DNA from: an uncultured Sphingomonas sp.
Lineage (GTDB): Bacteria; Pseudomonadota; Alphaproteobacteria; Sphingomonadales; Sphingomonadaceae
Direction of reading: 5' to 3'
DNA length: 35,000 nucleotides
Assembly: GCF_902806285.1 (NCBI RefSeq)
Contig: NZ_CADCWA010000203.1
Span: 1-35,000, forward strand
Within the stretch, counting starts at the first letter, position 1, and each line of letters begins with the position of its first letter. This document shows, in pieces, positions 14,484-16,583 of this stretch. The notes beneath the pieces are model-generated. The model had not been told where the DNA came from. It worked only from the letters and a program-made list of their open reading frames with translations, and did no database searches. The position numbers were made by a program, and so were the translations under genes.

Positions 14484-16583
14484 GTGGCGACGAAGGAGCT
14501 GACCGAGACGGACGCTGCCGCGCGGCTGGCGGAACTGGCGAAGGAGATCGCGCGGCACAATCGCCTCTACCACGACCGGGACGAGCCGGAGATCAGCGAT
14601 GCCGAGTTCGACGCGCTGGTCCGCGAGAATGCCGCGCTGGAGGCGCAGTACCCGCACCTGATCCGGCCGGACTCCCCTTCGCGGCAGGTGGGGGCGGCGC
14701 CGTCCACTGCGCTCGCCAAGGTGGCGCATGCCCGGCCGATGCTCAGCCTGGACAACGCCTTCTCGGACGAGGAGGTGCGCGAGTTCGTGCGGCGGGTGCG
14801 GCGGTTCCTCAGCTTGCCGGAGGACGAGCCGGTGGCGCTGACCGCCGAGCCCAAGATCGATGGGCTGAGCTGCTCGCTGCGCTACGAGGGTGGGCGGCTG
14901 ATGCTGGCGGCGACCCGCGGCGACGGGGCGGTCGGCGAGGATGTGACGCCCAATGCGCTGACGATTAGCGACGTTCCGCAAACCCTGTACCCCGGCGAAA
15001 GCCGGGGCCCAGCCGCTGGAGGCTCGAGTGCTGTGGAGGGCTGGACCCCGGCGTTCGCCGGGGTGCTGGAGGTGCGCGGCGAGGTGTTCATGTCCAAGGA
15101 GGACTTCGCCGCGCTCAACGCTCGCCAGGCGGAGGCCGGGGGCAAGGTGTTCGCCAATCCGCGCAACGCCGCGGCCGGCTCGCTGCGTCAGAAGGACCCG
15201 GGCATTACCGCCGCGCGGCCGCTGCGCTTCCTGATGCATGGCTGGGGTGAACTGTCGGAGCCGCTCGGCGCCGCCCAGACCGAGGCCGTGGAGCGGCTGC
15301 GCGCGCTGGGCTTTCCGGTGAGCGACCTCTTTCGACGCTGCGAGACGATCGAGGAAGCGCTCGCTCATTACGCCGCCATCGAGCATGCCCGAGCCGAGCT
15401 GCCGTTCGACATCGACGGGGTGGTGTACAAGGTCGACCGGCTCGACTGGCAGGAGCGGCTGGGGAGCGTCGGCCGGGCGCCGCGTTGGGCGCTGGCGCAC
15501 AAGTTTCCGGCGGAGAAGGCGGAGACCACGCTGGAGCGGATCGAGGTGCAGGTCGGGCGCACCGGCAAGCTGACCCCGGTCGGGCGCTTGACGCCGGTCG
15601 GGGTCGGTGGAGTGATGGTCGCCAACGTCACGCTGCACAACCGCGACGAGATCGCCCGGCTCGGCCTGAGGGAAGGCGACCGGGTCCGCATCCAGCGGGC
15701 TGGCGACGTGATCCCGCAGGTGGTCGAGAACCTCACCCGCGACGAGGAGCGGCCGACGTTCGTCTTCCCGGACCGTTGCCCGCAGTGCGGCTCGGAAGCG
15801 GTGGCTGAGGAGGGCGAGGTCGACGTGCGCTGCACCGGCGGCCTCATCTGCCCGGCGCAGCGGATCGAGCGGTTGAAGCACTTCGTCAGCCGCGGGGCGA
15901 TGGACATCGAGGGGCTGGGCGAGAAGACCATCGAGGAGTTCGCCGCATCGGGCTGGCTGCACGGGCCGGCAGACATCTTCCGGCTCCGCGACCACCGCGC
16001 CGAGCTGCTCGGCCGGGAGGGCTGGAAGGAGAAGAGTGTCGACAACCTGCTGGCGGCGATCCAGGCCAAGCAGGGGTTCGACCCGGCGCGGTTGCTGTTC
16101 GGGCTCGGCATCCGCCACATCGGCATCGTCACCGCCCGCGACCTGCTGAAGGCGTTCGGGACCATCGAAGCGCTGGCCGAGGCGGCGGCGGGCGAGAACG
16201 GGATCGCCGAGCTGTCCTCGGTCGAGGGCGTCGGCCCGGTGGTCGCCGAGGCGCTGCACGACTTCTTCCACGAGCCGCACAACCGCGAGCAGCTGGCCGA
16301 CCTGCTGGCGCTCGCCCGGCCCGCCGCGTTCGTCAGCCAGGCGCGGCAGACCGAGTGGAGCGGCAAGACGGTCGTGTTCACCGGCTCGCTCCAGACCATG
16401 AGCCGGGACGAGGCCAAGGCCCAGGCCGAGCGGCTCGGAGCGCGGGCGGCGGGCTCGGTCAGTGCCAAGACCGATCTGGTGGTGGCGGGACCGGGCGCCG
16501 GGTCCAAACTCAAGAAGGCCGAGGAACTGGGCGTCCGGGTGGTCGGCGAGGAGGAGTGGGCGCGGATCGTGGCGGAGGCTTGA
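14484..16583 (+). CDS. ligA: NAD-dependent DNA ligase LigA, with an in-frame palindromic insert
   Basis: 699 residues from GTG 14484. LigA seals nicks using NAD+. The Ia domain ([19 protein letters not shown]) binds NMN; the adenylated Lys is at residue 124 in the AEPKIDG motif; the OB fold contains [15 protein letters not shown]; the zinc finger is CPQCGSEA followed by [11 protein letters not shown]; HhH repeats follow; and the BRCT domain occupies about 625-699 ([19 protein letters not shown]). Between VPQTL and LEVRGEVFM about 26 residues (169-194) are encoded by a palindromic repeat, where typical LigA has only a short linker. The reading frame is kept and the conserved motifs on both sides are intact, so the enzyme is probably active. 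Confidence 0.95.
14987..15066. repeat. 80-bp palindromic repeat inside ligA
   Basis: The left arm (14987-15014, GTACCCCGGCGAAAGCCGGG plus GCCCAGCC) is an almost perfect reverse complement of the right arm (15039-15066, GGCTGGACCCCGGCGTTCGC onward). The loop is about 24 bases. The element is translated in frame with ligA. Related arms occur at 34599-34735, and a second CCGG-type family lies at 5581-5667. Confidence 0.85.

Follow-up and report, generated by a model that had tools for sequence, protein, structure and literature searches.

The locus described here raises the question of how an essential gene, ligA, came to contain a long palindrome that is read in frame as part of its coding sequence. 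The window, a stretch of 35,000 nucleotides, belongs to a draft genome of an uncultured Sphingomonas sp. (2.52 Mb in 203 contigs, 87% complete). Its ligA starts with GTG at 14484 and stops at 16583, and the frame is open all through, on both sides of the insert. The product scores 818 bits against the NCBIfam LigA model, and this is the sole LigA gene found in the draft. Two further LigA matches in this genome (G000) are no ligases: one is a repeat copy containing a stop, the other the opposite strand of the ligA locus itself. Named records with similar LigA come from Sphingomonas arenae, S. segetis, S. daechungensis and S. sediminicola. The features of the locus are as follows.

14484–16583, plus strand: ligA, NAD-dependent DNA ligase, 699 aa (open frame, NCBIfam, Pfam domains).
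14987–15066, plus strand: REP head-to-head dimer, in frame in ligA (unit matches; RNA fold z −6.4).
14989–15012, plus strand: first REP unit ACCCCGGCGAAAGCCGGGGCCCAG, with a loop of 4 and a CCAG tail (0 mismatches to the family pattern).
15041–15064, minus strand: second REP unit, inverted, ACCCCGGCGAACGCCGGGGTCCAG (0 mismatches to the family pattern).
14988–15062, plus strand: codons of the insert peptide, LigA residues 169–193 (TGAPEL in G008 at this place; pLDDT below 50 at 172–185).

The sequence-only reading had described a palindrome with nearly perfect 28-bp arms at 14987–15066, read through in frame as about 26 residues (169–194) between two LigA motifs. Its location and in-frame reading hold, while the architecture and the length had to be revised. 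The insert consists of two inverted copies of a 24-base unit, ACCCCGGCGNNNGCCGGGGYCCAG, with 28 bases between them. Either arm forms a hairpin on its own, which makes the element a dimer of REPs rather than a plain inverted repeat. Both copies agree with the unit pattern ACCCCGGCGAANGCCGGGGYCCAG without a mismatch; in 100 dinucleotide-shuffled versions of the window, matches with no more than 3 mismatches averaged 0.00. The extended arms of the palindrome cover 38 nt with 82% complementarity, and in the predicted RNA fold of 14975–15078 the pair forms one long hairpin (−73.2 kcal/mol, z −6.4, none of 200 shuffles equally good).

The insert peptide comes to 25 residues (169–193). It occupies a turn bounded by residues 168 and 194, which leads directly into the conserved E(V/I)RGE strand. 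A short linker had been claimed for other LigA proteins, and this is what is found: the nearest relative, G008, whose LigA is 91% identical, has TGAPEL between the conserved flanks and no insert, and E. coli LigA has a short turn at this position too. Given TGAPEL in G008, the net gain in the window LigA is therefore 20 residues. Most of the original turn is gone from the window gene. In the AlphaFold model of the window LigA (29 sequences, mean pLDDT 83, pTM 0.52), residues 172–185 fall below a pLDDT of 50 and the adjoining ten-residue blocks reach 85 and 89; mapped in this way, the insert would form a disordered loop, with confidently predicted segments on either side. Mean pLDDT of the models ranged from 71 to 83 with a best pTM of 0.52, domain packing being unreliable and left unused; the adenylation domain model matches solved structures (TM by target 0.71–0.88, ranks 9–34).

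The ligA element belongs to a dispersed family. At no more than 1 mismatch the REP core occurs 85 times on the plus and 86 times on the minus strand of the genome, versus 2 and 2 for the reversed control, which bears out the earlier claim of a family rather than a chance palindrome. A second copy had been noticed near the end of the window, and it is there, in an altered state:

34600–34736, strand not assigned: intergenic copy of the REP family, 3' of a TonB-dependent receptor gene (first arm broken by a nested palindrome).
34619–34643, strand not assigned: perfect 25-base palindrome CCCATCGAAGTAcTACTTCGATGGG, nested in the first arm of this copy (a repeat inside a repeat).

Its other arm, at 34711–34734, differs from the unit by 1 mismatch. 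We examined 58 elements, obtained from the window and from 50 of 51 fetched stretches (L260 failed the unit pattern); copies with two or more mismatches lie mostly outside this set. They include 36 head-to-head dimers (spacers of 9–61 bases) and 22 single units, with no tail-to-tail pair among the 58. The head consensus is (A/T)GT followed by ACCCCGGCG; over 94 unit heads, position −2 is G in 91%, −1 is T in 80% and 0 is A in 79%. Where the tail base is T, the unit stem pairs A+CCCCGGC with GCCGGGG+T around a 4-base loop, and the units end in YCCAG, which the search pattern already contained.

No target-site duplication was detected around the elements, no offset or length standing out. An open-frame design of the repeat was considered and rejected: the dimers have 0.694 open frames compared with 0.689 in shuffles, that is, no excess. 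Divisibility of the core by 3 was likewise dropped as an argument, holding for only 6 of the 36 dimers; the ligA and glyS cores, of 76 and 61 bases, are themselves not multiples of 3. With such core lengths, and open frames about as frequent as in shuffles, the reading frame can therefore be kept only by exact junctions.

Four of the 58 elements lie in frame inside genes: dimers in ligA and glyS, single units in uup and sucB. The remaining 54 lack a clear coding signature on both sides by the rule applied (codon-position composition, judged by eye; gene identities by NCBIfam). All four in-gene places are loops or linkers according to alignments and, for LigA, the model. In the beta-subunit gene glyS (L254:476-2770) the site is a loop between WLVEEGIV and the AERAARLAKADL helix; in Uup it is a linker before KLSYKDQRD, ahead of the C-terminal region. 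The SucB unit is present in a diverged form in G008 and absent from eight other relatives aligned. The reading frames differ, YPGE..WTPAFAG in ligA and SPANAG..GPRRSPGN in glyS; therefore no single peptide sequence is being kept.

Comparison of LigA within the genus shows how limited the insert is and that it is not alone. A readable loop was obtained for 59 members, leaving out G028 and G069 (L174, L178: no readable loop) and G033 (no LigA match). Most of them, 54, have no insert; five (G000, G031, G034, G037 and G055) carry palindromic units in the same turn. Sisters of two carriers, G008 of G000 and G050 of G055, have no insert, and four genomes of other families in the same reading have short loops. 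On a LigA tree built without the loop, the five carriers require 4 changes, all forced by well-supported branches. G054 was left out of this tree: although its genome is a single contig, ligA (L175) lies there in two frames, by a frameshift, a sequencing error or a real split. Carriers are also rich in repeats: they have 19–114 REP unit hits, whereas the remaining genomes have a median of 1.5 and at most 20 (one-sided p 1.1e-4, with no correction for phylogeny).

A profile of the uninserted loop, run over 396 genomes of the order, found 391 LigA genes, 313 of them (hand count) in the same family, the Sphingomonadaceae. Among these 313, 284 match the profile well and 29 give split or weak matches. 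Every loop in the 23 of the 29 genomes that were read is longer than the 40–42 residues usual for uninserted ones: 58–83 residues, or 48 in G245, which has a single short unit. The other six (G178, G190, G290, G292, G378 and G424, all of genus code g44, with a weak single profile match) were left unread, as were three low-scoring genomes outside the family (G071, G165, G167). Most of the family inserts have evident REP units. G397, a good profile match, has an 8-residue remnant-like insert at the turn which escaped the weak-match list, so 23 carriers out of 313 is a lower bound. Of 23 long-loop genes (a set partly different from the 23 read by profile), 15 have a palindrome in the loop with arms of at least 14 bases and at most 1 mismatch, versus none of 128 short-loop genes.

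The inserts at this one turn are of different kinds, which is the main point beyond the sequence-only reading: the same LigA loop is refilled by differing repeats. By average linkage, 27 ligA inserts form 5 groups: the window type, the CCCCTCCC/CCCTCTCC types, TCTCGAGCGAAGTCGAGA, GAGCCTGTCGAAGC and a CGTC-type, which a looser cut joins to the window type to give 4. The number of palindrome groups depends on the clustering method. Single linkage, which chains GC-rich inserts, places 21 of the 27 in one group and 6 in another; applied to all 64 inserts it lumps them as 53, 8, 1, 1 and 1, shared 11-mers lump them too, and average linkage was adopted. Placed on a tree, 151 distinct LigA proteins with 24 carriers among them call for 15 changes, of which 12 are forced; the tree was made by a quick method from a sample enriched for carriers, five long branches are flagged, and gains and losses count alike as changes. 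Four genomes of genus code g29 have a common insert, RSSRA(K/Q)SRD..LDAN..WDGP, into which a second repeat seems to be nested in one of the four, and two of g69 have a related insert of their own. Each of these two inserts takes 1 forced change on this tree, compatible with a single origin of each. As related inserts are shared within g29 and within g69, inserts may persist once acquired. The ligA loop of L199 (G339) has a second palindrome (around CCTGAGCCTGCCGAGGGG) seemingly nested in an older insert.

The GlyS loop is filled by REPs more often than the LigA turn. When the GlyS region of the window genome was searched in the same 396 genomes, at least 118 aligned across the insert among the matches listed, and 104 of these 118 span 90 residues or more, versus about 79 expected without an insert. 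The loops of the best 30 matches (L262–L291) are all 53–79 residues long, most with evident REP hairpins and a few (e.g., G373) without a clear one; these genomes were picked by score and are therefore not a random sample. Of 20 further genomes with split matches 17 could be read (unreadable stretches: L297, L298, L308), 10 having a short loop of 41–42 residues and 7 inserts, with loops of 48–107. The 37 glyS inserts form 11 groups by average linkage and 8 at a looser cut. In the Uup linker (L329–L340), recognisable REP units (up to 4 mismatches, at most 1 of 200 shuffles as good) are present in 7 of 12 congeners read, the window genome included; these were the best 12 of 31 genomes searched.

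We consider the mobility of REPs, filtered by what the host proteins tolerate, to be the best explanation of the LigA insert and of its recurrence, and would give it a probability of about 0.8. REPs of several families would be, or would once have been, mobile in sphingomonad genomes, landing mostly between genes. Those that fall inside genes would survive only if they are in frame and in a loop or linker able to accept some 20–40 disordered residues, such as the LigA turn, the GlyS loop, the Uup linker and the SucB linker. The LigA, GlyS and Uup places would then have been refilled repeatedly by whichever REP family was active in a given lineage. In the line leading to the window genome, a REP dimer would have entered ligA, most simply after the split from G008. 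We favour tolerance because of the link with REP number, the differing frames and sequences, and the disorder prediction. Since most of the old LigA turn is missing and no target-site duplication accompanies the element, a simple insertion is not proved.

Transposition is the probable mode of this mobility. No transposase could be linked to the REP family. Y1-type transposases occur in 3 of 61 genus genomes; REP units number 14, 28 and 42 in these three, where the median is 2 (one-sided p 0.004). A RAYT was considered as the mover: at the two Y1 transposase loci fetched, those other than G034, no REP unit was found within flanks of about 1.5 kb.

Instead of tolerance, the machinery of several REP families might prefer these DNA sites, for instance by a small hairpin or a lagging-strand feature, the loops being hot spots. 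Differing groups begin, by eye, no more than about two codons downstream of one conserved Leu codon (in one case Ile), and ligA, glyS and uup are filled in many species. Such targeting would, however, require the same target for differing REP families, the DNA around the empty LigA turn shows by eye little conservation beyond the codons, and the duplication of a target site is not seen. The other length-variable places in LigA speak on both sides. REP-like inserts occur in about eight of 151 LigA sequences in a second loop, in the HhH domain after AEAAAG (residue 570); five of the eight (L078, L101, L123, L193, L195, L197, L198 and L199) have strong palindromes and five also have the turn filled. 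The alignment puts this second site in the HhH-domain loop and not in the BRCT linker, which had been a candidate. Strong palindromes outside the turn were found in 11 of the 151 genes, five at the HhH loop and six elsewhere, and the latter look like chance in coding sequence. After ALNA, by contrast, 46 of the 151 sequences have indels of 5–15 residues and none has a strong palindrome. Tolerance alone therefore does not explain everything, and this is the main point against it in its pure form. On balance we regard targeted insertion as unlikely. A more specific version can be entertained tentatively, though we doubt it: the LigA turn, the GlyS loop and the Uup linker may constitute a small fixed set of docking loops for REPs, entered preferentially by unrelated palindromes because of some targeting feature that the loops have in common, over and above tolerance. 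If this were true, REPs would continually supply core enzymes with new linker sequence.

Co-option would mean that the mRNA hairpin or the added peptide is useful, e.g., by slowing translation before the next strand or by offering a contact site, and that inserts are favoured once present. The great stability of the RNA hairpin fits this, as do the inserts that look inherited (four genomes of g29, two of g69) and the diverged SucB unit in G008. A useful peptide is hard to reconcile with inserts that vary in sequence, frame and length (loops of 48–83 residues in the 23 read), with the 284 of 313 family genomes whose LigA matches the uninserted loop well, and with the disorder predicted for the window insert, which makes co-option very unlikely in our view. 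That a single ancient insertion was lost in most lineages, or that the insert is an assembly artefact at a repeat, is hardly credible even though the window genome is a fragmented draft of 203 contigs and a tree that counts changes cannot by itself tell gain from loss, as differing palindrome groups share one site with at least 12 forced changes on the tree, inserts are also present in the named isolate Sphingomonas segetis YJ09 and in genomes of few contigs, and the ligA frame is intact on both sides of the insert.

Repeated mobility under protein tolerance thus remains our preferred reading, and its interest goes beyond a single ligase. In-frame palindromes have so far been known gene by gene, from Rickettsia and several REP-rich species. 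One bacterial family here provides a repeated natural experiment in which loops of essential enzymes were filled many times by differing repeats, and neutral, targeted and useful inserts become directly testable alternatives. The inserts mark positions in LigA, a drug target, and in GlyS that accept tens of extra residues, and indicate at which places a working protein can take up selfish DNA. The two outcomes named beforehand as fatal to the sequence-only reading, the same residues in LigA of distant bacteria or a genome with no other copy of the arm, did not occur: most relatives have no insert and many other copies of the repeat exist.

Among known systems, REPINs are paired inverted REPs with a variable spacer, characterised by a GTAG tag and a RAYT transposase flanked by the repeat. 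The window element shares the paired inverted arrangement and the variable spacer. Unlike REPINs, its family has GTAG in just 6 of 94 unit heads. No Y1_Tnp or RAYT gene was found in the window genome (87% complete). S. alaskensis and E. litoralis, which appear in the comparison below, are sphingomonads.

Rickettsia palindromic elements, to which the sequence-only reading had likened a translated palindrome in an essential gene, are also read in frame inside conserved proteins and apparently tolerated, as far as the available part of PMC2229807 describes them. The ligA element agrees with them in being a dispersed palindrome read in frame and absent from relatives. It is, however, a REP dimer of 76–80 bp, and RPEs in the same source measure 105–146 bp and have other sequences and hosts; the likeness in kind stands, and the closest class is CGTC-1 and not RPE-1.

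According to the available part of Di Nocera et al. (2013, PMC3733652), CGTC REPs have a stem of 8–9 bp with A-T pairs at stem positions 1 and 2, a loop of 4–5, one end with CGTC (in many cases TGTC or CCTC) left unpaired, and a CCA tail; no transposase is reported for them there. The window family resembles the CGTC-1 REPs of that account in the 8-position stem, the loop of 4, the CCA tail, the predominance of head-to-head dimers, the occurrence in sphingomonads, the translation of some copies inside genes and the lack of an adjoining transposase. It differs in having the tag (A/T)GT directly before ACCCC and C, not A/T, at the second stem position: position 1 is A in 79% of the 94 heads and position 2 is C in a fraction of 1.00, and CGTC occurs near the tag in 3 heads (CGTC alone counted, without TGTC or CCTC). 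Since stem, loop and tail fit CGTC-1 and the tag and second stem position do not, we call it a GT-tagged relative; judged by its sequence, the window insert is a GT-tagged variant of CGTC-1-like alphaproteobacterial REPs.

The same source, in its available part, describes intragenic REPs that encode 20–30 residues, many in DNA repair genes, including the DNA ligase of O. terrae and tRNA synthetases and pseudouridine synthases of E. litoralis and S. alaskensis. The statement in the sequence-only reading that such elements are not a standard description for sphingomonads is thereby corrected (PMC3733652). Our inserts are alike in size, in being in frame and in falling into conserved genes. In the mostly open-access literature searched, supplements being outside it and Uup not a query term, we found no account of the LigA, GlyS and Uup sites as recurrent REP targets. 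The event is thus of a known kind, the repeat variant is new, and the pattern of convergence seems not to have been described. The one same-site case in the available part of PMC3733652 is recB of X. campestris and X. oryzae, where the two REPs lie at nearly the same position, while further genes belonging to one class are interrupted at different sites; in the sphingomonads studied here, unlike those cases, the same loops are reused over tens of species by differing palindrome groups.
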